Shown: positions 3,277-19,064 of the stretch, piece by piece
Position numbering within the stretch: the stretch's first letter is position 1
How the letters are laid out: each line of letters opens with the position of its first letter
Position numbers and translations under genes: made by a program
Notes under the pieces: generated by a model
The model's database searches: none
Told to the model about the DNA's origin: nothing
What the model saw: only the letters and a program-made list of their open reading frames with translations
Origin: a virus
Strand: one strand, 5' to 3'
Length of the DNA: 21,182 nt
IMG/VR virus record: IMGVR_UViG_3300035698_006614
Location: 1 to 21,182 of that record

Positions 3277-3742
3277 CGTTTGTTTCCTTTCCTACAAGAA
3301 CTCGATGATTCCCTTTAACCAACTCGCCTTCAAGGTCTTCTGGAATCTGGAACGACAACACGTTGGAGAATATCTCAAAGTTCCATCTTCGAAGGAAGGC
3401 CTCAGGGCTTCGTTTAGACTCTGCTCGAAGCTCCATTCGTCCTATCGACTCGGTCCATAGACAAAGTCGAAGGAACATTCTATCCGGAGTTTCATTGTCT
3501 TCAAGTGAACTCCATGCTTGGAGCACAAACACATGATTCTGCTCTGGAGGTGCAACTGCAATTAAAAACGCTTTCAAGTCTTCCCCATCATACGCTTGCA
3601 ATATGAAGGTAGATTCAGGAGTGCCGGTCAACAAGGTCTTTAACGCTCCGGCAAAAGCCTCTTTAGAATAATCTCCATCCGAAAGAAGATGCTCCATCAT
3701 CATATCAACTGCTATCGAGTTCTTCGCTTTGATCAATCTCAT
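3113..3742 (-). CDS. GNAT-like acyltransferase-fold protein (C-terminal tail possibly out of frame)
   Basis: The ATG at 3742 has AAGGAG 7 nt upstream, which favours it over a TTG two codons earlier. Residues 1-145 look like the small GNAT-fold proteins found among phage tail genes: a helical N-terminus, strands such as AFLIAVA and VFVLQAW, and the end pattern KRSPEAFLRRWNFEIFSNVL, which resembles the family's R-x-P-x-A-x-x-RR-W-F closing strand. Catalysis is unproven; many phage members may be structural. From about residue 150 the frame runs 164 nt into the next gene and encodes a low-complexity Gly/Glu/Asp tail that does not look like part of this fold. One base fewer near 3311-3316 would instead end the protein at a TAG at 3292, just before the next ribosome site. 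The true C-terminus is therefore doubtful. Confidence 0.65.
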   Translation of the reverse strand: MRLIKAKNSIAVDMMMEHLLSDGDYSKEAFAGALKTLLTGTPESTFILQAYDGEDLKAFLIAVAPPEQNHVFVLQAWSSLEDNETPDRMFLRLCLWTESIGRMELRAESKRSPEAFLRRWNFEIFSNVLSFQIPEDLEGELVKGNHRVLVGKETNDGTGVRRDGDDAGPNLRAEVDLGADKTVVEEGVEGRSGGVPGEGDSGGAVKKAD

Positions 3743-3765
3743 CTTCAAGCTCCTTCTCTCTTAAC

Positions 3766-4305
3766 TTAAATTAGGAGGTCCTCAGTAACAATCCTTGGAC
3801 CACTCCACATCCACAAGAAATACTGATACTCAGCAAAAAAGTTAGTTGACTCGAAACTTAATGTTCCGTCAGCATTATATTGAAGAGCATAATCTCCATA
3901 CGCTCCAGCTGACCCGGTTTGAAGGTCTGTTGGAGTAACAAACCCATCTCCGATAAAGAAAGATGCGTCTGAAGCGTATCCATTTAGTGCTGCTTTAACT
4001 GTTGCTTTATCGTCTTTTTGCCATTGATAGAACATATGAATATTACGACCACTCCAGTTCTTATCACTAACAACAACAGTTCCGTTTCCAGTAACTCGAA
4101 TCCATTTGTTAACAGAAATACCTGCAAGGTTCGAAGTTGATGGAGAGTCTTCAGCAATTGAATCAGCCATCGCTTCACCACTAACATGAGACCATTGTCT
4201 CCTTAGATACGTATGAAGGTCTCGAATATACTTTTCAACATCTTCATCCGCCTTCGGGGGCATCAACGGAAGCGGTTCAGCACTAAGGATAGACACAAGA
4301 CTCAC
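3766..4305 (-). CDS. Small virion protein of unknown function
   Basis: This 179-residue protein starts at a GTG in a GTGA overlap with the stop of the 677-residue tail gene, with GAGGGAGG upstream. Residues 20-40 form a charged helix (DEDVEKYIRDLHTYLRRQW). The rest is rich in Gly, Ser, Thr, Asn, Trp and Tyr and looks beta-stranded, as in virion decoration or fibre-associated proteins. It has no signal peptide, cysteine cluster or catalytic motif. Its coupling to the nozzle-like gene suggests a tail or collar component whose amount is matched to it. I do not recognise the family; the structural role is inferred from composition and neighbours. Confidence 0.7.
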   Translation of the reverse strand: MSLVSILSAEPLPLMPPKADEDVEKYIRDLHTYLRRQWSHVSGEAMADSIAEDSPSTSNLAGISVNKWIRVTGNGTVVVSDKNWSGRNIHMFYQWQKDDKATVKAALNGYASDASFFIGDGFVTPTDLQTGSAGAYGDYALQYNADGTLSFESTNFFAEYQYFLWMWSGPRIVTEDLLI

Positions 4306-6335
4306 GACTCACCTCCCTCGATGAACCAACTTCTCAACCATCTTAGACTAAAGTGTCCTGTCGTGGAGCTTACTTTGAAACGAATTGTCTTCCCGACGAC
4401 ATCGATAAAGACTTTCTCCCGAGTCCACGAACTCTCGAGGCTAATACTTCTCCCAAGAGTCCACGAGCCTCCTTGATTCGTTGAGTAATAAACATCAACT
4501 GCGGTTCCCTTGACGTCAAGTTCAACTTCAATCCATCTGGCATAGAGGGAACCAAAAGTCGCAGGAACCGCAAAGTCCATAGACTCCCAGGAGCCTTCGT
4601 AAGTAGTTCCATCATCTTCGAGAGACGTGTCGTCGTTGTAAAAGACCTTTCCATCTGAAGTTCCTATCGTCGGAACAAACGCACCCTTTTTCGACCTCGC
4701 GTCCTCCCAGGTCATTCCCCAATCCGACCAACTCATCGTTGAAAGGAAAGTCGAGTTCCATGTAATTGCATCGTGTCTTTGATACAAACCCATCGCTGTT
4801 GGGCGGTCAGTATATTCAAGAGGAACCCATCTATGATTCCGAGGGTCAGTGATGTCGTATTCGAATAGATACGTTTTCGAAGTCCCAACAGTCAAAGGAA
4901 TCGTCCACCAGACAAGATGCTTCTCGGTGAACTCCATTCCGAACGCTTTATACGCTTCATCGACATCGACCTCGTTTCGGAGGCTTTGTCGAATCTCCCT
5001 CCCCATCGACCTCAGCCCTCTCGAACCATCAAACAACAAGACGTCTTCCTTTGTCATAACCAGGTGAAATGTCCCAATCGAAACGACCGACCTTGGAGAT
5101 AGAAGTCTGACATTTTGGACAAGCTGTTCGAAGGAGTAAAGAACATCTCCTCCGACATATGTCATTACTCCTATCGAGTCTTCAGCATAGACAACAAGTC
5201 TGTCTCCAAGGAGAAGGAGCTTTTGAATATCCCCAACTGCATCCGCAAGGAGAGCCGTCCCGGAACCATAACTCGACCAATCCGTAAAGTCTCCAGCAAC
5301 ACTCCAATAAATCGCCTTCGGATAGTCCGCTGCAAGTTCGACATTCCCAAGAACAAGATGGTCTTTATAAACCTTAATCGACTTACACGTCTCAAACCCT
5401 GTCGGTCCTGCAAGTTGAACAAAGAACTCCGTCGTGCCATCCATGAAGAGAGGATGATCAAGGCCGTTTGCAATAAAGAGATACCGTCCACTTAAATCCG
5501 TTGCAACTTCATAATCCAACACATTCGACTCATCCCCAGTCCAAATTGCAGATGTCCTGATGTCGTCGAAGTAAACTGAGTGAACCCCTTTGTCTACATT
5601 TTGATACAAACCTATCGACACCGTAAGGTTCATCTCGTCCATATCCAAGTCACCAGCTGTTGGAAGGGACCTGACAAGCATCCACGTATTTGCTGCGATG
5701 GCCGGAACTTCAAACTCAACCCAGTTGTTCTGAGCACCATCGGCATCTTCACTTAAAACAACTGACCAGTCGCCAGCATCAAGGGCAACTGTCGAACGGA
5801 ACCAGAACGACATTCCAGTCTCGGCTATCATATTAACAGCTGCAAAGTTATCATAGCAAACAAGGCCAGTTCCAAAGGCGTCTGCAAGAGTTAGTTTAAG
5901 GGATTCTGAACCGACCTTAACAAGAGTGGATTCGTCCGCAGTGGTCACATTAGCCGATGCAGTCCAATCTCCGTGAGTCTCACAGTCTTCTACAACTCTA
6001 CCAAGAATTCTCCACTCTTCGTCTGTCGAGTTATATAGAAACCGACTTCTCGTCGTGACGGCGATGAATTGACTTACTCCAGCAAGAGTCTCAAAGTGAA
6101 CGAGTCCAAGAATTGGATCTCCGACCGCGTCAGGTTGAGTAATCGGAATGTCTCCACCTGTCTCAGCGAAGTCTCGATAACCACGTCTCTTAGATAGTAT
6201 TCCATCCGTAACCGTCGTATTCAAACTCTTCGGACTATACCGAGGGTTCAGCATAGTCGAAGGAATATCCGTATCAAGCCCTTGAATTGGGAAGATTGAA
6301 TCCTGAGGCATAAAGCTCTTAGACGCACGTTTCAC
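4302..6335 (-). CDS. Podovirus tail nozzle/stabilisation-type protein with an inserted beta-sandwich
   Basis: The protein has 677 residues from a GTG at 6335, with GGGAGG 7 nt upstream. The N-terminus (IFPIQGLDTDIPSTMLNP) matches the opening of podovirus proteins that continue the tail below the adaptor (P22 gp10 and T7 gp12-like group). Many beta strands with recurring Gly-Asp/Asn turns (DYEVATDLSGRYLFIANG, LLLGDRLVVYAED, FHLVMTKEDVLLFDG) fit a beta-propeller. Residues about 117-262 differ: GSESLKLTL, MSFWFR, NTWMLVRSLP and VYFDDIR are the strand pattern of a jelly-roll carbohydrate-binding or LamG-like domain. This insertion may add a sugar-binding surface to the tail. It lies after the adaptor and fibre-like genes, as expected. 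Fold names come from pattern reading, not from a search. Confidence 0.75.
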   Translation of the reverse strand: MKRASKSFMPQDSIFPIQGLDTDIPSTMLNPRYSPKSLNTTVTDGILSKRRGYRDFAETGGDIPITQPDAVGDPILGLVHFETLAGVSQFIAVTTRSRFLYNSTDEEWRILGRVVEDCETHGDWTASANVTTADESTLVKVGSESLKLTLADAFGTGLVCYDNFAAVNMIAETGMSFWFRSTVALDAGDWSVVLSEDADGAQNNWVEFEVPAIAANTWMLVRSLPTAGDLDMDEMNLTVSIGLYQNVDKGVHSVYFDDIRTSAIWTGDESNVLDYEVATDLSGRYLFIANGLDHPLFMDGTTEFFVQLAGPTGFETCKSIKVYKDHLVLGNVELAADYPKAIYWSVAGDFTDWSSYGSGTALLADAVGDIQKLLLLGDRLVVYAEDSIGVMTYVGGDVLYSFEQLVQNVRLLSPRSVVSIGTFHLVMTKEDVLLFDGSRGLRSMGREIRQSLRNEVDVDEAYKAFGMEFTEKHLVWWTIPLTVGTSKTYLFEYDITDPRNHRWVPLEYTDRPTAMGLYQRHDAITWNSTFLSTMSWSDWGMTWEDARSKKGAFVPTIGTSDGKVFYNDDTSLEDDGTTYEGSWESMDFAVPATFGSLYARWIEVELDVKGTAVDVYYSTNQGGSWTLGRSISLESSWTREKVFIDVVGKTIRFKVSSTTGHFSLRWLRSWFIEGGES

Positions 6336-9716: not shown

Positions 9717-10685
9717 CTACGCGGTATAGAGCCGACCATGACGTCTCAGCTGGTCCGAAACGATATTCATCGCACTTAAGATATGCGCGATTCTTTCGCC
9801 CTGCAGAGCAATAGGCTTCCACTCTGTCATGTCAAACCATAGCTGGGGATCATAGACAACATCGATGTAGTTGGTGTTCAAGAACAGCATGTTGTTAGAC
9901 GTCATATTCGACGTCCAAATCATGTCTTGTCCTTTGAACTTCAACACATCAAAACCCAAATCAGCCATCTGTGAACCAGAGTTCTTTACGATTTGGCTCA
10001 TATCGAGCGCAAAGTCCTCGTAAATCTCAAACAACCCTTGGTCACTGATAATCAGGTTCGGGCCTTCTTTTCCGTTTGCAATCGTGTTGAATAAGTTCTT
10101 CATATCCGACACGAGATTAACTGCAATCGGAGCAGTCGTTGCCTTGTATTTCGGGACCCACCACGCATTCGAACGACTAATCTTTCCATACGTTCCCGTC
10201 GCACGGGAACCATACGCAGGAACGATATCATTCAACCCTTGGATATTCTTCCCAGTTTCAGCCGTCACGACAGCCCGGAGAACGTCGGCCTCGTATTGCT
10301 GTTCGAGGGCTTCCCTCGCTGCCTGAAGCCTCGTGCCAACATACGACTTGATCTTAAACTTTCCGTTGTTCTTCTGATCGTCGAAAATCGAACGCTGGAC
10401 GTGTGAACTCAAATATCTCCAAGTCCACATAGCCATCGTTTCGAGAGACGGTTCGCCCTGTTCAAAAGTATCACCCTTCGTGACTGCCTTCGTTGACGCT
10501 TCACCATACCGAACAGTCCTGGTAATATACTGTCCACCAACCTGCGTCTTAAAGCAACCCTTCTCACGAAGAGCCACCCAGACAACAAGAGCGTCGAGGA
10601 TATTATCCACCGCTTCCGGTCGGATTTCATACCACGTCGAAACGAAGTAGTCATCGATGGTCCGGGTCAAGCTCGGAATTGCCAC
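9717..10685 (-). CDS. Major capsid protein
   Basis: The protein has 322 residues from a GTG at 10685, with GAGGAG 6 nt upstream. Length, position after scaffold and composition match HK97-fold coat proteins of podoviruses. An N-terminal helix (SLTRTIDDYFVSTWYEIRPE) leads to an E-loop-like beta region (YITRTVRYGEAS), a long spine-type helix (VGTRLQAAREALEQQYEADV), a central domain with NLIISDQGLFEIYEDFALD, and a C-terminus ending ALQGERIAHILSAMNIVSDQ then LRRHGRLYTA, like the closing strand and arm of coat proteins. It would form the icosahedral shell around the scaffold before DNA packaging. The fold call comes from pattern and context, but the identity is well supported by its neighbours. 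Confidence 0.82.
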   Translation of the reverse strand: MAIPSLTRTIDDYFVSTWYEIRPEAVDNILDALVVWVALREKGCFKTQVGGQYITRTVRYGEASTKAVTKGDTFEQGEPSLETMAMWTWRYLSSHVQRSIFDDQKNNGKFKIKSYVGTRLQAAREALEQQYEADVLRAVVTAETGKNIQGLNDIVPAYGSRATGTYGKISRSNAWWVPKYKATTAPIAVNLVSDMKNLFNTIANGKEGPNLIISDQGLFEIYEDFALDMSQIVKNSGSQMADLGFDVLKFKGQDMIWTSNMTSNNMLFLNTNYIDVVYDPQLWFDMTEWKPIALQGERIAHILSAMNIVSDQLRRHGRLYTA

Positions 10686-10702: not shown

Positions 10703-11467
10703 CTACTTTATGTCGAGTTGCACACGGTCTTGAGCCTCGTTGAGAAGCTGTTCAAATCCTTGCCTCCCACGAGCTAAAGGCGTGTCTCGCTCGACCTTCT
10801 TGCCAACTCTTGAGGCCGTCGTCGTCGGTTTTTCCGACGCTGTCTTGGCCTTACGTGAACCTCCCTCACGACGCTTTGCCACAAGGTAGAGTTCTTCGAC
10901 TGTAAGCTCAGGGTTTTGACCATTCAACGCAACCATTTGTTCTTGGAAGTCGTCGAAGTCGTCATATTTCTTCTTCGCCTTGTCGATTTGTGTCTTGACC
11001 GTGGTTTTTCTGCCTTCTTCTGCAAAGGACAAGGCATCGTTTACCTTGTTCATAACAGGTTTCAGCTTCGCGTCCAGGGCCGTATCCACGACATGCGCAA
11101 GTTTCTTCGTCATATGCTTAGCGAACTCTTCGTTCGTTAGCTCGTCAAGGTCAACCTTCTCGTCAGGGTCTTCGATAACCGTCTTCTTCAACGACTCCTC
11201 GAAGTCAACAACCTTAACTCGTCGGCCTTCTTGACGTGCATCCAAAACCGCACGCACATTTGGATCACTTAACAGCCTCGCAATCGCCTTTCCTTCGTCC
11301 GCCTTCTCTTCCACCTTTGTAAGTCTATTTTCAACCTCGTCTTCAAGGGAGGACTTGTCCTTAGTCTTGTCCACCTCCGCAGGCTTAGTAATATTCATAT
11401 CCAGTGCTTCCCTGGAAACGAGAGGGGCATCGTCTGTGGACGTAACCCTGTCACTTAGCTTCGGCAT
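10703..11467 (-). CDS. Capsid scaffolding protein
   Basis: The protein has 254 residues, with an ATG at 11467 and AAGGAAGGAA upstream; it overlaps the previous small gene by 17 nt. It is highly charged and almost wholly helical, with an acidic N-terminal half (KSSLEDEVENRLTKVEEKAD), the segment DPNVRAVLDARQEGRRVKVV seen in many phage scaffolds, and a Lys/Arg-rich C-terminus of the kind that contacts the coat protein. There is no protease motif. Its position immediately before the major capsid gene is the standard one. It would direct assembly of the procapsid and then leave it. The call is confident from composition and context. Confidence 0.82.
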   Translation of the reverse strand: MPKLSDRVTSTDDAPLVSREALDMNITKPAEVDKTKDKSSLEDEVENRLTKVEEKADEGKAIARLLSDPNVRAVLDARQEGRRVKVVDFEESLKKTVIEDPDEKVDLDELTNEEFAKHMTKKLAHVVDTALDAKLKPVMNKVNDALSFAEEGRKTTVKTQIDKAKKKYDDFDDFQEQMVALNGQNPELTVEELYLVAKRREGGSRKAKTASEKPTTTASRVGKKVERDTPLARGRQGFEQLLNEAQDRVQLDIK

Positions 11468-11675: not shown

Positions 11676-11932
11676 AACAGGGCTCCTGATTCAAGGTTAT
11701 GTTCCCTGCAATAATCTTGCAAGGACTTCTTCGTTTCAAATCTCATCGGTTCGGAAGCTATGTGATCGAGAGTAATAGGCTTCCAACTATCGCGTTGGGG
11801 AGTGTATACCTCAACGAACTCCATAACCTCTCCACACTTCGGGCACTTAATCTTATCCCGCCGGTTGCGGACCTCCCGCAGAACCTCCACCACCACCTGG
11901 TCCACCGGGCACTTGTGCTGATACATTGGCAT
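11672..11932 (-). CDS. FmdB-like zinc-ribbon protein, one cysteine missing
   Basis: The protein has 86 residues. The start MPMYQHKCP is the typical opening of FmdB-type zinc ribbons, and CPKCGE (C30, C33) is the second knuckle. The first knuckle reads CPVD, with C8 present but Asp where the second cysteine is expected, so the metal site would be Cys3 or Cys3-Asp. The gene overlaps the 3' end of the portal gene by 80 nt in another frame and has GAGGAG 10 nt before the ATG. A second ATG two codons later is possible. Such small ribbons are frequent in phage head modules, often beside portal or terminase, but their job is unknown. Binding of nucleic acid or protein is an inference. Confidence 0.72.
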   Translation of the reverse strand: MPMYQHKCPVDQVVVEVLREVRNRRDKIKCPKCGEVMEFVEVYTPQRDSWKPITLDHIASEPMRFETKKSLQDYCREHNLESGALL

Positions 11933-13586
11933 TCGCTGGACTCCTCGACGTTTGATTAAACAATCCGGCTAACTCCGGATCGTTGAAAGCATTCACGAGA
12001 TATTGTCTAAGGGCAATCGGGTCAATCATCGGGTCTTGAACAAGGGCTGCATACATTTGAACAGCCTGTTGTCTCCGAGATTCGACAGACATCCCTGGTT
12101 CAGACGAGAAGTCAACATCATATGCGTATGGACCCTTGAGGTCTGTTCCTCTGAATCGAACCCACTTCTCGATTCCATCCTCTCCAAGTATCTGTGCCCA
12201 TCGAGGAAGGGTCCAAAATTCAAAGATGATTGAGTTAATCTTCTTAAACGTCGACTTGTAGACTTCCTTGATAATCTTCTCTCTTCGACTCATCCTAAGG
12301 TCTGAACTCTTTCCGACTATCAACGACTCCGTTGCAGTCCTTCGTCCCTTTTGTTCATACTCACCCATCTGATTCCTTGAGAACCCAACAGCTTCACGGG
12401 CATTACGTCTCACGTATTCTGAATCCATGTAAAGAAGCTGGTTGTTGTTTGGAGCAGTGATAGTCTGAATAGACTCCGCAATCGTGTTCCCCTGCTTAAC
12501 CTTAATTCCACTTCCGACCTCAATAGACAGAAGCTTCTCAAGGTCGTCCACATCCATCGCGCCTTCTTTGAAAAGGAACTTAAGGACGGATAGTCTTCGT
12601 TGTTTAGTTGTCTGGATTGAAATATCCGACAACTCCGCCTGAGCTTGTTTCAGATAATAGGCATCTGGAGTAGTCCAAAAACATCTTGCAGAGGGTGTCA
12701 ACGTAAACGAGACAAAAGGAACCCCGTGAGTCTGAAGAGCATCTTCATCGTTCCGAAGGAACTTCTTATGTCCCGTCGCAACTACTAGAATCTTCCCGGA
12801 CCTCTTATCCCTGATCTCAAACATCTCGACAAACTCAGCCTTGCCTTCGTTACTTCGGCGAAGTTGTCCTCCGACCGTTTCCCCTGCTCGATAAGGCTTC
12901 GTGACAGTCTGATACGACTTGACATAGTCTTCCATCGACATAACTGGCTCAAGGGACGAAGTGTTCTCATACTTCGAATCAGCCTTGACATCCTCGATGT
13001 GTCTAACGACTCGATGGATAACCCAGGGAGAACGTTCAAGTGATACACCCGTTCCGAAGGGAACGAGGAGGTCGTGAGGTAAGACCGCCTTCACCCACGG
13101 CATTCCAGGGCGGACAAGCGAGTCGAACTCAAGTCGAGAGCCCTTCTTGTTGAATTGTGAAAGTGATATACCCGTTCCTTCTTGGAACTCTAAATCAGGG
13201 TCCCACCCAAACTCGGAGTCGTAGCCTATCTTCAACGTCCCACGTCCCCAAAGATACGCATGAAGACTTGCTGTCTCTACTTCCGACCCGACGTCGAGGT
13301 CTTGAAGAAGTTCATTATCAACACTCTCCAGAATCCTTATTGCCTCAGGATTCGACCGTCTCCGAGCCTTTACCATGATATGAGGATTTGGAACATTAAG
13401 GGACGAAAGGAGTGAATCTCCTGTTCCCGCTATAATATTCGGACCCTCGTGAACTGAACCCTCGTGAGTATTGTAGAACAACGCTTCAAGAGAAGCCCAA
13501 GATTCCTCCAATCCATGAAGCCTCCGGTATTCCATGGCGTTCGAAATCTCATTCATCCAATCATCAACATCGAGTTCTTTCCACAT
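11853..13586 (-). CDS. Portal protein
   Basis: The chosen start is the ATG at 13586, giving 577 residues. It overlaps the lipoprotein stop in TGATG and has AAGGGG about 10 nt upstream; the frame stays open 24 codons further but without coupling. Portal features include the helical N-terminus with YRRLHGLEESW, the wing domain segment VGSEVETASLHAYLWGRGTL, the PHDLLVPFGTG segment, LSDISIQTTKQRRLS before the stem, the tunnel-loop region (NNNQLLYMDSEYVRRNAREA), SRNQMGEYEQKGRRTATE and a helical crown, ending in a Gly/Pro-rich tail (PGGPGGGGGSAGGPQPAG). It forms the dodecameric DNA entry ring and docks the terminase. Size fits the short-tailed phage group. The C-terminal 26 codons overlap the zinc-ribbon gene. 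Confidence 0.83.
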   Translation of the reverse strand: MWKELDVDDWMNEISNAMEYRRLHGLEESWASLEALFYNTHEGSVHEGPNIIAGTGDSLLSSLNVPNPHIMVKARRRSNPEAIRILESVDNELLQDLDVGSEVETASLHAYLWGRGTLKIGYDSEFGWDPDLEFQEGTGISLSQFNKKGSRLEFDSLVRPGMPWVKAVLPHDLLVPFGTGVSLERSPWVIHRVVRHIEDVKADSKYENTSSLEPVMSMEDYVKSYQTVTKPYRAGETVGGQLRRSNEGKAEFVEMFEIRDKRSGKILVVATGHKKFLRNDEDALQTHGVPFVSFTLTPSARCFWTTPDAYYLKQAQAELSDISIQTTKQRRLSVLKFLFKEGAMDVDDLEKLLSIEVGSGIKVKQGNTIAESIQTITAPNNNQLLYMDSEYVRRNAREAVGFSRNQMGEYEQKGRRTATESLIVGKSSDLRMSRREKIIKEVYKSTFKKINSIIFEFWTLPRWAQILGEDGIEKWVRFRGTDLKGPYAYDVDFSSEPGMSVESRRQQAVQMYAALVQDPMIDPIALRQYLVNAFNDPELAGLFNQTSRSPANANVSAQVPGGPGGGGGSAGGPQPAG

Positions 13587-13855
13587 CAGGGTGTTTCCCC
13601 TTTGTCTTCGAGCTTGCTTACGATATATTCCCAATGCTCCGGAGGCATCGCTACCCATCCGCCTATGTCTTGAACAATCGAATCCTCTTTACCATTCAAC
13701 AACTTCACCCTTAACACCCGACTTTCAAGTATCCTACACGGCATCCCTGGACCAACCATAACATAGATTGTCCTAACTTGAGGGCCTATCATGCACCCCA
13801 AAATCGTCCATGTTAATATCATCATTAGACAAACCGTCAGGAACTTCCGGCGCAT
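13586..13855 (-). CDS. Small lipoprotein, o-spanin candidate
   Basis: The start chosen is the ATG at 13855 with AGGAGG 6 nt upstream, giving 89 residues; the longer frame (GTG at 13906) has no such site. The N-terminus MRRKFLTVCLMMILTWTILG then C is a bacterial lipoprotein signal, with a lipobox ending at the Cys at position 21. The mature part (about 69 residues) has RTIYVMVGPGMPCRI and IGGWVAMPPEHWEYIV, a pattern I associate with small phage lipoproteins. Release of this type of protein at the outer membrane would suit an Rz1-like spanin, but it lacks the Pro-rich stretch of classical Rz1. Its first 83 nt overlap the preceding 55-residue gene in another frame. Confidence 0.72.
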   Translation of the reverse strand: MRRKFLTVCLMMILTWTILGCMIGPQVRTIYVMVGPGMPCRILESRVLRVKLLNGKEDSIVQDIGGWVAMPPEHWEYIVSKLEDKGETP

Positions 13856-13940
13856 GGACTTCCTCCTCGTGGGGTTTGTCCGTTCCCCACAGATACCCAA
13901 TGACACTTAAGACTATCTTCGTGATTACAGCCCAGATCAT
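13773..13940 (-). CDS. Very small membrane protein with acidic tail, nested against the lipoprotein gene
   Basis: This 55-residue frame starts at an ATG in an ATGA overlap with the preceding gene, with AAGGAA 9 nt upstream. Residues 1-19 (MIWAVITKIVLSVIGYLWG) form one membrane helix. The remainder is acidic and polar (DKPHEEEVHAPEVPDGLSND). The last 83 nt overlap the lipoprotein gene in a different frame, an arrangement like nested spanin genes, although this product is far shorter than a usual Rz. It could also be a lysis regulator or simply a leader that couples lipoprotein translation. Evidence is coupling, ribosome site and helix; the family is unknown. Confidence 0.5.
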   Translation of the reverse strand: MIWAVITKIVLSVIGYLWGTDKPHEEEVHAPEVPDGLSNDDINMDDFGVHDRPSS

Positions 13941-14047
13941 TTATTCTTTTTCCTTACGGGACACTTCATACCTGCTGCCCTTCTTCGACCAACCTTCCTA
14001 CTTGCAGAACCTGTTCCATCCCGTTTTCCTGGATTATTTCTTCCCAT
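13937..14047 (-). CDS. Very small basic protein
   Basis: This 36-residue gene starts at an ATG one base after the stop of the holin-like gene (TAAGATG), with GAAGG 8 nt upstream, and ends in an ATGA overlap with the next gene. Eleven of the residues are Arg or Lys, and Gly and Asn are frequent (GRNNPGKRDGTGSASRK, GRRRAAGMKCPVRKKNK). It has no membrane segment and one cysteine. Tight coupling on both sides supports expression. Function is unknown; a nucleic-acid-binding or virion-packed peptide is possible. Confidence 0.52.
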   Translation of the reverse strand: MGRNNPGKRDGTGSASRKVGRRRAAGMKCPVRKKNK

Positions 14048-14048
14048 C

Positions 14049-14231
14049 TTATTTACCTTCTTTCCCAAAATCAGCAGCCCCTTGAGCAACCAGATACGCC
14101 ACGATGAGTGCCGAGATCTCAGTCCCTGCCATTCCCCATTCTTGAACTCCAGAGAGCCCTGTCCCGACGATACCGATAACAGCACACGCCAAAACGACGA
14201 ACTTCTTACTAAGGAACAATTTCTTAAACAT
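14049..14231 (-). CDS. Holin-like small membrane protein
   Basis: The protein has 60 residues, with an ATG at 14231 and AGGGAGAG 5 nt upstream. A basic N-terminus (MFKKLFLSKK) is followed by a hydrophobic helix (FVVLACAVIGIVGTGLSG), a short polar turn (VQEWGMAG) and a second, weaker helix (ISALIVAYLVAQGAADFG) ending KEGK. The AYLVAQGAADFGK ending and overall plan resemble small two-helix holin-type proteins of many phages, which would collect in the inner membrane and open it at lysis. Neighbours with a membrane-anchored coiled coil and a lipoprotein support a lysis cassette. An antiholin or structural membrane protein is not excluded. No muralytic enzyme is encoded in the window. Confidence 0.68.
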   Translation of the reverse strand: MFKKLFLSKKFVVLACAVIGIVGTGLSGVQEWGMAGTEISALIVAYLVAQGAADFGKEGK

Positions 14232-14232
14232 T

Positions 14233-14556
14233 TCATCTCTCCCTTGTCAAAATATCCAAGACTTTAGTTTCCATCACAATAGCAGAGTCAACTGCTCTTA
14301 TTGCAGCTTCAGATGCTCGAGTAGATGAAATCATAGCTTCAGTATTACGGCTTGTTTGATTTTCAATTCGATCAAGTGTTTTCAACACAGAAACTAACAA
14401 CTGATCTCGTCCTGCGTCTACTCTCTCCAATGCACGGAGTCTATCTGCATGAACACACTGAGTATTAAAAACAATAGTCAATACAGCTCCAATTAGAAGG
14501 ACCACAATCCCTCCAAGCCAAAGTTCAAACTTAAGTCTGTTTCCATTTTCAATCAC
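14233..14556 (-). CDS. Membrane-anchored coiled-coil protein, i-spanin candidate
   Basis: The start is a GTG at 14556 with AAGGAG 6 nt upstream; the longer frame into the GC-rich block is unlikely. The product has 107 residues. Residues 1-11 are short and charged, about 12-32 (LWLGGIVVLLIGAVLTIVFN) form one membrane helix, and 36-107 are a long polar helix (RLRALERVDAGRDQLLVSVL, RASEAAIRAVDSAIVMET) suited to a coiled coil. This is the plan of Rz-type inner-membrane spanins: N-terminal anchor and periplasmic coiled coil. The lipoprotein needed as partner lies three genes downstream. Family identity is inferred from topology alone; a holin-associated XhlA-type protein would have its helix at the other end. 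Confidence 0.65.
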   Translation of the reverse strand: MIENGNRLKFELWLGGIVVLLIGAVLTIVFNTQCVHADRLRALERVDAGRDQLLVSVLKTLDRIENQTSRNTEAMISSTRASEAAIRAVDSAIVMETKVLDILTRER

Positions 14557-14566
14557 ACAAAACTCC

Positions 14567-14725
14567 TTAAGAGAATTGTCTTCGACTACCCTGCCCACGT
14601 CTTGCCCACGGAAGTCCAGGAACCCACGTCGGCGCCGTGACGTTGCCCTCCTTGTCCACCTCGGGTGCGGCAAAGCGACACGAACCACAGCACCGTGCGA
14701 TTACTGCTTGCTCGATCTCGGACAT
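14567..14725 (-). CDS. Small CxxC protein at the edge of the GC-rich block
   Basis: This 52-residue frame has an ATG at 14725, 2 nt after the upstream stop; GAGAGGGGG lies about 7 nt before it. Residues 12-16 (CCGSC) form a cysteine cluster, followed by RFAAPEVDKEGNVTAPTW. Phage proteins starting this way usually have a second cysteine pair for zinc; here none follows and the end (ARRGQGSRRQFS) runs across the point where GC content drops. It may be a truncated gene left at a recombination joint. Its stop overlaps the ribosome site of the next gene. Function unknown. Confidence 0.5.
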   Translation of the reverse strand: MSEIEQAVIARCCGSCRFAAPEVDKEGNVTAPTWVPGLPWARRGQGSRRQFS

Positions 14726-14727
14726 CT

Positions 14728-15021
14728 TCAGCCCCCTCTCAGTAAAGGCGTCTTCTTCTCGGCCTCCACATACGACTCTGTCTTTCCGTCCAGGCCCACT
14801 TGAGTCAGATCGGCCAGAGCTCGGTGCAGCTTGTCGATGAACTCAAGCGTGCCAGGCCGATAGTGAACCCCGTTCCGGCTCACCCGCAGCCTCGTGATGT
14901 CGCATACAAGTTGGCGCATTCCCCACCTGGAACAAGACTCGGCGATCTTCCTCACGTAGTCCAGGGGCAACGACGCGCCGGGCTCTGCGTCCATCCCATC
15001 GCGCTCGATCTCGGTCGTCAA
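14728..15021 (-). CDS. Small protein of unknown function in the GC-rich block
   Basis: The frame is open from a TTG at 15045. I prefer the TTG at 15021, which lies after the upstream stop and has AAGGGG 6 nt before it, giving 97 residues. The start is uncertain. The sequence is charged and probably helical (LDYVRKIAESCSRWGMRQLV, TLEFIDKLHRALADLTQVG), with a basic middle (DITRLRVSRNGVHYRPG) and no membrane segment. Codon use is GC-rich like its neighbours and unlike the rest of the operon. I do not recognise the family; a virion or assembly role would be guesswork from position. Confidence 0.6.
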   Translation of the reverse strand: MTTEIERDGMDAEPGASLPLDYVRKIAESCSRWGMRQLVCDITRLRVSRNGVHYRPGTLEFIDKLHRALADLTQVGLDGKTESYVEAEKKTPLLRGG

Positions 15022-15031
15022 GCTGCTCCCC

Positions 15032-15721
15032 TTACGAACCGCCAAGCCGACGGCATGTAATCAACTCGCCGGTCTTGGTGTGACCCGCCTCGCCGTAGAC
15101 TACGTTCTTCTTCACGGATTCGACAGGCGGCTGCACGGCGTCCTGCGCTGAGTAATGCGCTGCCATCGAGAAGGCAATAGTGGCATACTGTCCGGCGATA
15201 GTGGCGTCCAACTCGTAAAAGACAAAATCGGTGGGCATCGTCACCCACCAATTGCCGATGATGGTGTGTTGCCCGTGAGCATGGACGGCGTCCGGCGGGT
15301 TGGATACACCGTCGGGGTCGCTGAATCCCGCTGTGTCATAAAGAGTCATCGTAGTGGGAGCACAGAAATCAGACTCTCCGGGCCCCCCTTGTGGTGTGTA
15401 GATGATGTCCCCAGCCAGGGTCACTGGGCCGTTCAGATACATTCCCTTTCCGGCTCCGAAGCACTCTATACCCCACGCCGGATACAGCGTTGCAAAGGCT
15501 GCATCGACTACGATTCCGCTCCACGTTACTCGTGCCGCTCCGCCATTCTTTCCCGGCTGGATAGAAGGAGTGACCACTGATGCCTCGAAGTGCGCGAAGT
15601 CAGTGCCACCACCGTCACCAGGATAGCCAGACATGGCAGCATCACCGGCGGTCTTCCAGTTGCCGTCGAGGTCAATCCGGTTGGATACCGGACCCTTCCA
15701 ATAGAAATGTCTATCAGCCAC
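15032..15721 (-). CDS. Beta-rich virion/fibre-type protein
   Basis: The protein has 229 residues from a GTG at 15721, with GGAGG 8 nt upstream. The N-terminus (FYWKGPVSN, DLDGNWKTAGDAA, GTDFAHFEASV) has the W-x-G ... NW ... PG ... D-x-x-x-F pattern of beta-helix or beta-solenoid surface proteins, with Gly, Asp, Thr and aromatic residues throughout. The C-terminus (VKKNVVYGEAGHTKTGEL) is a motif I recognise from phage structural proteins, where a V-x-x-x-V-x-Y-G ... T-G-x-L tag ends a fibre-like protein. There are no catalytic residues to name. It sits in the imported GC-rich block, consistent with an exchangeable surface component. Structural role likely; receptor binding is only a possibility. 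Confidence 0.68.
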   Translation of the reverse strand: MADRHFYWKGPVSNRIDLDGNWKTAGDAAMSGYPGDGGGTDFAHFEASVVTPSIQPGKNGGAARVTWSGIVVDAAFATLYPAWGIECFGAGKGMYLNGPVTLAGDIIYTPQGGPGESDFCAPTTMTLYDTAGFSDPDGVSNPPDAVHAHGQHTIIGNWWVTMPTDFVFYELDATIAGQYATIAFSMAAHYSAQDAVQPPVESVKKNVVYGEAGHTKTGELITCRRLGGS

Positions 15722-15724
15722 GGG

Positions 15725-15874
15725 TTATTCCTCCTCTGCCTTTTCAAGAGCGGCTTCGCGTTCCACCTTCACAATGCCAGCCCACGCAACCCGTCCTTCA
15801 CACCGGGCTTTCGTGGCCGCGCACTTGGCATCGGCGTCGTCCATGCGTTGTTGCATCCGCTGTTCGTAGGTCAT
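15725..15874 (-). CDS. Very small helical protein
   Basis: This 49-residue gene has an ATG at 15874 with GAGGA 7 nt upstream and a stop just before the ribosome site of the next gene. The whole product is predicted helical and charged (TYEQRMQQRMDDADAKCAAT, EREAALEKAEEE), with two cysteines (residues 18 and 25), and looks like a short coiled coil. It lies between two beta-rich virion genes in the GC-rich block. Phages often keep such small coiled coils as fibre chaperones or linkers, but nothing in the sequence proves that here. Confidence 0.58.
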   Translation of the reverse strand: MTYEQRMQQRMDDADAKCAATKARCEGRVAWAGIVKVEREAALEKAEEE

Positions 15875-15901
15875 TGTCGGATCCTCATTAGACTCTCGGC
15901 T

Positions 15902-16537
15902 TTACGACGCCACGATGTTCAGGTAGTAAGAACTCAGATCCTCAGTGACTTTAAGCCACACAGCCTTGATGGGATCTTTGCTGTGAACGGAGAGGACCAT
16001 CGCCCCGTCTATCGCTGGACTCAGGGCCACCGGGCTTCCCACGAAGCTCACCTGGGCGACCGCGTCGGTGTCCAGCCAGTAGATGAGGTTCTGCCAGCGC
16101 GAGTTGATTCGCTCGACGGTGAAGGTGTCGCCGACCACCATGTCGTAGTCCAGGGCGTCGATCACCACGTTGTCGGCGTCGGTGTAGCTGTTGATCACTC
16201 GACTCACGCCAGCGTTGTTCCCTGTGAGCCATCGCAGCGTTGCTCCGGCCATCGGAGCGGCAAACGTGGCGGTGGCGTTGTCGCGCACCTCGGTCGTGTC
16301 GTTGCCAGTCAGACTCGTCACGACCCCCAACGTGCCAGGGTAGGCCTGCTCGGTTGCGTCCGGGCGGGGCAACAGGACGTGCTTGACCACTGTGGTGTTC
16401 GCTGGAAGAGCGAGACGAGTCTCAAGCAACAAATGTGCTGCAACGCCCTTAAGAGGACCATCATATGCATCAAGAGATGCGTTTACTCCCTCCGTAACAA
16501 CCGAAACTGCTCCATCTCCACCTGTATACCATGCCAT
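15902..16537 (-). CDS. Virion protein with a phage beta-barrel module; mosaic gene
   Basis: The protein has 211 residues, with an ATG at 16537 and GGAGGAG 8 nt upstream. Residues about 95-150 (LTGNNAGVSRVINSY, NVVIDALDYDMVVGDTFTVE) follow the G-x-N-a-G ... V-G-D-x-F pattern of a small beta-barrel module seen in several phage virion proteins. The C-terminal part (VAQVSFVGSPVALSPAIDGA) is also beta-rich. There is no enzymatic motif. Codon use changes inside the gene: about the first 45 codons match the AT-richer operon, the remainder the GC-rich block. This suggests a recombination point within the gene that kept the N-terminus, perhaps the part that attaches to the particle. Role in the virion is inferred. 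Confidence 0.68.
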   Translation of the reverse strand: MAWYTGGDGAVSVVTEGVNASLDAYDGPLKGVAAHLLLETRLALPANTTVVKHVLLPRPDATEQAYPGTLGVVTSLTGNDTTEVRDNATATFAAPMAGATLRWLTGNNAGVSRVINSYTDADNVVIDALDYDMVVGDTFTVERINSRWQNLIYWLDTDAVAQVSFVGSPVALSPAIDGAMVLSVHSKDPIKAVWLKVTEDLSSYYLNIVAS

Positions 16538-16553
16538 TAGTTAAACTCCTCCT

Positions 16554-16955
16554 TTAATTCTGCTGCCAGTAGGCTGTCGATGCGCTTGCAGCTGCATTCC
16601 CTTGTGCGACGAACCGGACGGCATAAAGTCCTTTAATATCCAACCACAAAAGTCCCACTCCTGCTGCCGGTTGAGATGTCATGTCTATTGAACACCCAAG
16701 GAGAGGAAACTCTGGAGATGTGAAGTCCGCTGAAACAGACGCCACAACGTGCCATGATGCGTCGGGGTGAACTTGAACTTGGATTTCAAACACATCAAAG
16801 GCTGCCGCTCCTGAGTTTGTAATCTCAATGGATAGTCGTTCAGCCCACGGAAAGACCTCGACAGTCGCAATAACGGTGTCCGTTGCATCTGCAATAACTA
16901 CGCTTCCAACCGAAACTCCATAGTTATCGTGAATTACCTCTGGCCTCTTTGACAT
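16554..16955 (-). CDS. Beta-rich virion protein of unknown function
   Basis: The protein has 133 residues, with an ATG at 16955 and AAGGAG 6 nt upstream. After a short basic start (MSKRPEVIHDNYGV) the sequence alternates hydrophobic and polar residues in strand-like runs (SVVIADATDTVIATVEV, WAERLSIEITNSG, FEIQVQVHPDASWHVV, YAVRFVAQGNA), a compact beta-sandwich pattern common to capsid fibre or decoration proteins. There is no signal peptide. It lies between the terminase and the mosaic virion gene, with codon use matching the resident operon. I cannot name the family; structural role is the best reading. Confidence 0.65.
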   Translation of the reverse strand: MSKRPEVIHDNYGVSVGSVVIADATDTVIATVEVFPWAERLSIEITNSGAAAFDVFEIQVQVHPDASWHVVASVSADFTSPEFPLLGCSIDMTSQPAAGVGLLWLDIKGLYAVRFVAQGNAAASASTAYWQQN

Positions 16956-16991
16956 ATCAAACTCCTTGATACTACCCTATGGGTTATATCA

Positions 16992-18581
16992 TTAGTTAAA
17001 ACTCAGCGTATCCCTCGTTCGATAGACATCAAAAACTCGTGAATCTCCTGAGTTCCTCTTTGCACGGTGTTTAAGTTCCTTGATTGCCAAGTCAATGGAC
17101 AAAGGGTCAACATCGTTCTGTTGAATTTCCCTTGTCTTCGATGCATCCGAAAGCCCCCACAGTTCAAGTTGCGACGCCAAGTCGTCTAATACATCGTCGA
17201 ACTCGCCGAGCGGGAAGGCAAGCATTTCGTTTAGGAGAACTGTCATGTGGGACTTAATGAGAATCATCCCATTCGAGAACACAGGTTGAAGTCCCTTGAT
17301 TCGTTCAAACTTCGACCTCTTTGTATGCGTGAGGGATTGAACTTCGAAGAATACATTCTCCTTTAAGGACTTCTCCTTTATCCAATACTTAAGGGACTTT
17401 TGATACTGAGTAGTTTCAAGTCCAACCTTCACAGGATTCCATTTAACGACTTGGTCGAATAACATATCGAGCAAACGTCCAGGTGAACACCTTTCCCTCT
17501 TGTATTCAAGAACGTAAACACGTCCAGTCCGAAAACACTTACCACACGTGAGCACTACATTAAAGTCTGGCTTACCCTTCGAATCCGCAGGATCACCTGC
17601 CGGGTCAACGGTTGTATAACAGATAAGGTCCTTTGGAGGAGTCTCGTAATATTGAACCCATTCAGGCTGAAAGACCATATCGGTGCTTCGGACGGGCTTA
17701 TTCAGGTAGAGGCAACTGAACATGTATGGACCTAACGAAGCTCTCAGTCCCTCCAAAACCTTCTTGTCGAACCTCTCCTTATACGTGATCTTCCCATTCT
17801 CATCAGCCTCGCCATTTGAGTTCTCAAGGCATGCTCTTGAGATGAAGGCAAACTGAGGTTCGTTTGCCTTCACCCAGGATAATAGGTCTTTCTCGAACCA
17901 TCGAGTTCCAACGACGATGTTCTGACTTTCGCCAGGAGATACGAGAAGAGGAGTAACAAGCCTATGCCATCCGATAGCCTGATCAACATCTTCCTTCTTA
18001 GGGCAAAGATTCGATTCACCAAGGTCGTCGAGTTCAGGAGCCACCGTATCGTCTTCGGTGATGAGGTCATAATGCCTCGACGTAACTTGGGTCCAAACTC
18101 CTGCCGCCTCGAAGGTCGAAGTATCATAGGTTCCCGGCCTATTGAGACACAACGCTTCAGCTTTCCACGTGCAAGTCTTGTTTGGAAGAATCTCCGGAAA
18201 CAGGGCTCTAAATAATTCGTTCTGTTCGACTATCTTCTTTATGACACCCAGTTTCTGAACAGCGTTAGTGAACGTGTTCTGAACAAGAAGTGATCTGAAG
18301 TTCGGATCTCGTATTGCCCGCCAAAGAGGATACGCTTCTGAACATACCGTAGTCTTTAACCATCCTCTCGGAAGGATAAACCCTTGACGAATAAGCGTCT
18401 TATATCTCTGAAGTTGATTACAAACGGGAAGATGAATATGAGGAACAAGCCAGTCAAATCCAAGAACTCCCTTGGCGAAGACATATAGGTCTCTTTTTGA
18501 TAACTCCCGAAGTTTGCGAATATGGGTTTTGGTCAGTTTAGAAACGACCGCACCATGCTCGACATTTAACTCACTGGTCAA
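16992..18581 (-). CDS. terL: Terminase large subunit
   Basis: The protein has 529 residues. The start is a TTG at 18581, 11 nt inside the terS frame; no ATG or GTG nearby does better. The ATPase has a Walker A PRGWLKTT (71-78), where the glycine usually before the lysine is leucine, Walker B YDLITEDD (171-178) and a coupling motif VVGTRW (223-228). The nuclease has VDPAGD (D326), VGLETTQYQ (E389) and FDDVLDDLA (D463, D466, D467), the three acidic clusters of the RNase H-like fold. Length is typical. The enzyme docks on the portal, pumps DNA into the procapsid and cuts the concatemer. Identity is secure from motifs and from terS beside it. Confidence 0.93.
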   Translation of the reverse strand: MTSELNVEHGAVVSKLTKTHIRKLRELSKRDLYVFAKGVLGFDWLVPHIHLPVCNQLQRYKTLIRQGFILPRGWLKTTVCSEAYPLWRAIRDPNFRSLLVQNTFTNAVQKLGVIKKIVEQNELFRALFPEILPNKTCTWKAEALCLNRPGTYDTSTFEAAGVWTQVTSRHYDLITEDDTVAPELDDLGESNLCPKKEDVDQAIGWHRLVTPLLVSPGESQNIVVGTRWFEKDLLSWVKANEPQFAFISRACLENSNGEADENGKITYKERFDKKVLEGLRASLGPYMFSCLYLNKPVRSTDMVFQPEWVQYYETPPKDLICYTTVDPAGDPADSKGKPDFNVVLTCGKCFRTGRVYVLEYKRERCSPGRLLDMLFDQVVKWNPVKVGLETTQYQKSLKYWIKEKSLKENVFFEVQSLTHTKRSKFERIKGLQPVFSNGMILIKSHMTVLLNEMLAFPLGEFDDVLDDLASQLELWGLSDASKTREIQQNDVDPLSIDLAIKELKHRAKRNSGDSRVFDVYRTRDTLSFN

Positions 18582-19041
18582 TTAGTTTCGCCCTCTCGTC
18601 CTCCGCCAAGGAAGCTTCTTGAATAGCCACGTTAAGAACTTGGATAGAACCTTCGGAGATTACAATAGATGGCATGTCACTTCCGACAATTTTCTGACCC
18701 TTGTATGTTCGGTCGAGGATGTCCTTCGCGGAAGCAAGTTGGATGTGTTCTTTGTCTGAACTTAGTAGACTCACCTGGGTCTTAGCGGCGGAAACGGAAG
18801 CTTCTTCGAGAATACCACGTGCTTTCTCGAGGTGAACACTTCTACCTTCATCGTCTTTCTTATTTCTCGTATCTCGCCTACGTGCAATTTCATCTTGGAA
18901 AATCGGAGAGTTTGTAATCAACGAGATGGCCTGTTCAGTTAATCCGACCGTCTGAGCGATAGTCTTCCGTGAATGTCCCTCCAGACAAAGCTCCAGGACT
19001 TTAAAATGCCTCGGTAACAACCTTTGAAGTTCGTTTCCCAC
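18571..19041 (-). CDS. terS: Terminase small subunit
   Basis: I prefer the GTG at 19041 (GGAGGA 10 nt upstream), giving 156 residues; the frame is open to a TTG at 19059. Residues about 12-45 form a helix-turn-helix (FKVLELCLEGHSRKTIAQTV, then GLTEQAISLITNSPIFQ) like that of small terminases that recognise the packaging site. The middle is a charged helix (EGRSVHLEKARGILEEA) that would form the oligomeric ring, and the C-terminus is acidic and suited to binding the large subunit. It overlaps terL by 11 nt. Four tandem 10-bp repeats lie just upstream and could be its DNA target. Family call from HTH, size and position. Confidence 0.8.
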   Translation of the reverse strand: MGNELQRLLPRHFKVLELCLEGHSRKTIAQTVGLTEQAISLITNSPIFQDEIARRRDTRNKKDDEGRSVHLEKARGILEEASVSAAKTQVSLLSSDKEHIQLASAKDILDRTYKGQKIVGSDMPSIVISEGSIQVLNVAIQEASLAEDERAKLIDQ

Positions 19042-19064
19042 TTTGTCCAAATCCTCCAAATCTC

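Follow-up and report, generated by a model that had tools for sequence, protein, structure and literature searches.

The interval between the terminase large subunit (TerL) and portal genes of an uncultivated tailed phage is probably an optional cassette site with fast turnover, and the middle of the cassette that it now holds was probably replaced fairly recently, and in frame, from a GC-richer source. The phage is represented by a metagenomic virus record that was read from its sequence alone; the whole stretch analysed, 21,182 bases in length, is referred to here as the window. The genes of the slot and of the backbone on either side of it, all on the minus strand, are as follows.

9717–10685, minus: major-capsid-like protein (MCP), backbone; named by position and conservation; at most 72% identity in a relative
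10703–11467, minus: scaffold-like protein, backbone; named by gene order and its position before the capsid gene; homologues in 87 loci
11853–13586, minus: portal protein, conserved left flank; 48–50% identity to L002–L004
13587–16991, minus: TerL–portal slot, a variable cassette between the conserved TerL and portal genes; in relatives, the unrelated genes found here take up 0 to 6.7 kb
13586–13852, minus: lipoprotein-like protein of 88 residues with a lipobox (LGC), in a spanin-like position, as read from sequence; PHROG Rz-like spanin at E = 0.24
13937–14047 (approximate), minus: small basic ORF with a GKRDGTG motif, which also occurs in one ORF in the slot of a relative (L008, 6195–6338)
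14049–14231, minus: holin-like membrane protein of 60 residues; PHROG 9987 (holin) at E = 0.17 only
14233–14559, minus: membrane protein of normal G+C with one hydrophobic stretch, next gene to the left of the block, possibly lysis-related; PHROG 6065 (unknown function) at E = 0.004, holin at 0.2
14570–14725, minus: Cys-containing ORF of 51 residues (from its translation), with its final codons on or beyond the left edge; possibly cut short by the left junction
14588–16417, minus: GC-rich block of ~1.83 kb, G+C 0.60 vs 0.47 elsewhere (change-point scan, shuffles, dinucleotide signature); likely an imported segment
14728–15045, minus: ORF of 105 residues in the block (from the ORF list), start maybe further in; no relative found
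15032–15721, minus: gene of 229 residues in the block; no family, phage, plasmid or viral-contig match
15722–15871, minus: ORF of 49 residues in the block (from sequence)
15902–16537, minus: gene of 211 residues spanning the right edge; codons 1–42 of flank composition, the remainder GC-rich by sliding third-position G+C (GC3)
16554–16955, minus: slot gene of 133 residues with normal G+C; no significant family match and no relative in viral contigs
16992–18581, minus: TerL, conserved right flank; PHROG 38, E = 3e-69
18571–19059, minus: terminase small subunit (TerS); PHROG 2538, E = 3.5e-8; homologues in 88 loci

Two small genes lie between the portal gene and the scaffold-like gene. The portal gene takes its name from its sole match among GenBank phages, which is annotated as a head-to-tail joining protein.

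Base composition across the slot

The four 60-base G+C counts from which the block was first proposed (23 at 14461–14520, 39 at 14641–14700, 40 at 16201–16260 and 28 at 16441–16500) were exact upon recount. A two-edge scan of the whole window identified 14,585–16,405 as the best single segment, with a G+C of 0.60 inside and 0.47 outside, and its log-likelihood gain was 57 as compared with at most 10 in 60 block-shuffled controls; the change described in the original prediction as sharp on both sides is therefore sharp at both edges and far above what shuffled sequence produces. A GC segmentation limited to one split returned none, since an inner block needs two cuts to be set apart. Local estimates placed the left edge at 14,588 (interval 14,569–14,604), at the extreme end of the small Cys-containing ORF and a short way upstream of the following gene, and the right edge at 16,417 (interval 16,367–16,471). 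The latter does fall inside the 211-residue gene as predicted, at approximately codon 42 (range about 22–57) rather than 45, and the left boundary was likewise corrected to 14,588.

The 211-residue gene is a single open frame, with a good Shine-Dalgarno sequence (AAGGAGG) upstream of its ATG, and sliding GC3 within that frame rises from 0.26 in codons 1–38 to 0.80 thereafter. The three genes that follow have third-position values of 0.62–0.76, as opposed to roughly 0.3–0.6 in the backbone genes; because the step is found at third positions, the block is not an effect of amino-acid composition. Codon choice differs accordingly, with CTG accounting for 49% of Leu codons in the block vs 10% in the backbone and AGC for 29% vs 3% of Ser codons, and the dinucleotide signature of the block deviates more than those of all 158 other windows of the same length. 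By G+C, GC3 and dinucleotides alike, the block is unlike the backbone in the manner of an exchanged module. The normal-GC genes of the slot have the same composition as the backbone.

Conserved flanks and unrelated slot contents in relatives

With TerL, portal and capsid alignments as queries, approximately 150 loci, some of which overlap on the same contigs, were fetched from IMG/VR; two further loci came from bacterial and archaeal genomes, and 153 loci were compared in all. Homologues of TerL were found in 136 of them, of the portal protein in 141 and of MCP in 122, and the TerS–TerL–portal–scaffold–MCP backbone is collinear across relatives. The nearest relative has a TerL that is 61% identical and a capsid protein that is 72% identical; neither a strain-level relative of the window nor a donor of the block was found in the collections searched. 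A search of bacterial and archaeal genomes with the portal protein returned no match, and the corresponding terminase search returned one distant match on a contig of a Thermoplasmata MAG plus a 26% fragment in a Daviesbacteria MAG, which is too little to name a host. One distant member of the lineage, L153 (QMSR01000043.1), comes from a 7.3-kb contig in a bin assigned to a Thermoplasmata archaeon.

A tblastn search with nine of the window's slot genes against the other loci revealed no credible homologue; the sole entry was for the 105-residue gene, at E = 0.03 and outside the slot of the relative in question. The TerL–portal interval spans 0–6.7 kb, being shorter than 100 bp in 25 of 90 non-redundant loci, 100–900 bp in 30 and at least 900 bp in 35, and the portal-to-MCP distance is 2.5–3.3 kb in almost every locus that has the two genes. 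When the filled or empty state of the slot was mapped on the portal tree, branches with strong support required 11 or more changes, and two loci with flanks of ~76% DNA identity, L054 and L149, have slots of 35 bp and 1,652 bp, respectively. Homologous, collinear flanks with non-homologous contents, as in an exchanged module, are thus a property of the lineage, and the test that the original prediction had set for itself, relatives sharing both flanks yet differing between them, was borne out by these loci. There are hints that the TerS–TerL interval is a second cargo site: among loci with a filled slot, 20 of 23 have TerS directly or almost directly next to TerL, and 48–3,866 bp separate the two genes in 11 of 14 loci with an empty one. 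Loci that carry extra genes between TerS and TerL when the TerL–portal slot is empty include L003, L039, L127 and L137, among others.

That replacement takes place in the slot was upheld by this comparison; the limits first drawn for the replaced unit were not. Since the 133-residue, holin-like and lipoprotein genes, which have normal G+C and lie on both sides of the block, are as absent from relatives as the block itself, the replaceable unit is the whole slot (13,587–16,991), and the GC-rich block is its most recent-looking and most foreign part. This equal absence, together with the lack of homologues in the relatives for either half of the 211-residue gene, would also suit a cassette that came as one unit from a mosaic donor, the GC step in the 211-residue gene being old and made elsewhere. 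We consider such an arrival unlikely, as it would need the donor composition to coincide with that of the backbone, which the normal-GC slot genes match and for which a longer residence of these genes is the simplest reading.

Two pairs of near-identical relatives record replacements at strain level. L012 and L048 are 99–100% identical over nearly 7 kb except at ~4,390–5,590; in this interval, identity falls to 61–95% across a GC-rich slot gene with its borders, around a middle of 97–100%. L061 and L062 are 97–100% identical over 9 kb except at two spots, the larger of which (3,611–3,972) lies within one slot gene: its first ~67 codons and its C-terminus are kept, and its lectin-like middle, called by eye and by alignment with L038 and not by Pfam, is replaced. 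The second spot is small and lies at ~9,375–9,600 in L061, ~1 kb downstream of the capsid gene. The sharp drop in identity at the borders was seen in these two pairs of relatives rather than in the window. A kept N-terminus with the rest replaced, as proposed originally, holds as far as the N-terminus goes for the slot gene of L061 and L062; for the window's 211-residue gene, the evidence for a breakpoint inside the gene is compositional, because no relative carries either half. From the composition of the window genome, a junction within this gene is likely, and we infer that the same replacement process happened in the window phage.

GC-rich islands were also present in the same slot of eight other loci (L008, L010, L012, L016, L019, L026, L046 and L090). 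A segment with a gain above 15 was detected in 10 of the 36 non-redundant loci with slots of at least 0.9 kb and was located in the slot in nine of these. All nine strong slot islands, the window's included, are GC-up, and there were only two weak GC-down anomalies. Sliding GC3 placed both island edges within genes in L019 and the left one in L010, and the dinucleotide signature of the island was the most deviant in six of the nine loci. That high G+C might be universal among the slot genes of relatives was rejected, as L004, L006 and L009 carry slot genes with a GC3 below that of the backbone. As a tentative and somewhat doubtful extension, the slot may be a dedicated exchange site for surface genes, with imports that are systematically GC-richer and often joined in frame and with the TerS–TerL interval as the alternative site when it is empty; such a site would imply either that the donors form a biased pool or that recombination proceeds in a way that preserves N-termini.

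The uniformly upward direction of the nine islands, a bias not expected from random donors, would agree with a native block that gained G+C where it stands, whether through GC-biased gene conversion at a hot spot of recombination or through translational selection acting on virion proteins made in abundance. We find this very unlikely given that the composition changes in steps, over no more than tens of bases, at edges of which one lies within a gene, that the MCP and portal genes, conserved and presumably expressed at high levels, are themselves not rich in G+C, and that the dinucleotide signature shifts too. Still less probable is an assembly chimera, in which a piece of another genome was joined into the contig; the contig is indeed a metagenomic virus record, but the same collinear backbone resumes at both ends of the block, the reading frame and third-position bias stay in phase across the right edge, and a similar island occupies the same site in several independent contigs. 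Import of the GC-rich block is well supported, with the relatives that speak to it being at most 61% identical in terminase.

Products of the slot genes

The original prediction had described the 211-residue gene as a virion gene with an anchoring N-terminus and at least one of its neighbours as fibre-like; no significant family match stands behind any of these names. None of the window slot proteins scored above the curated cut-off of a family profile, the closest case in the 211-residue protein being residues 100–142, which weakly resemble Pfam Phage_BR0599 (E = 0.009, below the cut-off). Receptor-binding, lectin, depolymerase or fibre domains, which would mark a host-recognition module, were not found at significance in these proteins. 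The 211- and 229-residue proteins had no match in phages and viral contigs, nor the latter in plasmids; the 105- and 133-residue genes had none in viral contigs, and the DNA of 13,500–19,000 had none among GenBank phages. AlphaFold models of the 211- and 229-residue proteins made without an alignment (pLDDT 33 and 30) were discarded as useless. No reverse-transcriptase-like ORF, as in a diversity-generating retroelement, was noticed in the ORF list of the window. As for the predicted location between terminase and lysis genes, the terminase side is secure (PHROG 38), and the lysis side has holin and spanin matches at E = 0.17–0.24 only.

The slots of relatives hold more recognizable genes. Family matches of the largest slot genes comprise a right-handed beta-helix in L002 and L016, a polysaccharide deacetylase in L007, YadA head repeats plus a phage depolymerase domain in L006, and Laminin_G_3 in L008 and, below the cut-off, in L010; by eye, membrane and lipoprotein genes are located near the portal end of the slot in many relatives. 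These contents support adsorption-type cargo in the slot by analogy and do not speak for the window's own genes. The window's 229-residue protein, which by eye resembles slot proteins of L009 and L020, is possibly a beta-rich structural protein. An indispensable receptor-binding protein cannot reside in the slot, which is empty in 25 of the 90 loci, unless those phages encode it elsewhere.

In the import reading that we favour, the slot would host accessory virion-surface genes, for adsorption or decoration, along with genes for membrane proteins and lipoproteins with a possible part in lysis. The replaced part would begin near codon 42 of the 211-residue gene and stop just short of the first membrane-protein gene, and the in-frame replacement would have turned the 211-residue protein into a hybrid and brought in three or more new neighbours. 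The kept N-terminus would attach the 211-residue protein, the slot products would sit on the virion, and selection by hosts would drive their exchange.

Outside the slot, a 179-residue protein (3766–4305, minus strand) is matched by ten relatives, mostly in its N-terminus only (residues 1–50 up to 1–119). On this sequence pattern of a kept anchor and a variable C-terminus, it would be a more promising receptor-binding candidate than the product of the 211-residue gene.

Comparison with known exchangeable modules

In the Alteromonas phages A5, V22 and P24, a host-recognition module is exchanged by horizontal transfer and recombination (PMC10579305). The window resembles schitovirus A5 and its relatives in having collinear, conserved TerL, portal and capsid genes together with an unrelated, exchanged module; unlike the slot, the module of the A5 group includes a tail fibre, a chaperone and tail parts and has relatives in other phages (PMC10579305). 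In the window the site lies between TerL and portal, the slot proteins are without a significant family match, and the donor search was negative. Receptor-binding proteins of Klebsiella and E. coli phages are described as an N-terminal structural module joined to an exchangeable C-terminal specificity module (PMC8262889, PMC10408124). A kept N-terminus with a replaced remainder is likewise suggested by the composition of the 211-residue gene and seen in the sequences of L061 and L062, and the window's 179-residue gene is similar in being conserved mainly at its N-terminus. Unlike those proteins, the window slot proteins have no detectable enzymatic, beta-helix or lectin domain, and in L061 and L062 the C-terminus is kept too. 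Since no recognizable domain was found in them, the window's slot proteins are only candidates for modular receptor-binding proteins within an exchanged host-recognition module.

Morons and other accessory phage genes are of foreign composition, optional in their presence and inserted between conserved backbone modules. The window slot is like them in all three respects; unlike them, it is on the late-gene strand, comprises several genes, has a likely junction inside a gene, recurs at one site and has adsorption-like contents in relatives.

Mosaicism of host-recognition modules is well known; the present case is set in an undescribed phage lineage and at a poorly described site. With its many relatives, the lineage shows clearly where an uncultivated phage group exchanges its probable surface genes, and it demonstrates that a compositional step spotted by eye can flag an exchange site. 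As GC-rich islands recur at this one locus, existing metagenomes could serve to test where the donor DNA comes from and by what mechanism it enters.
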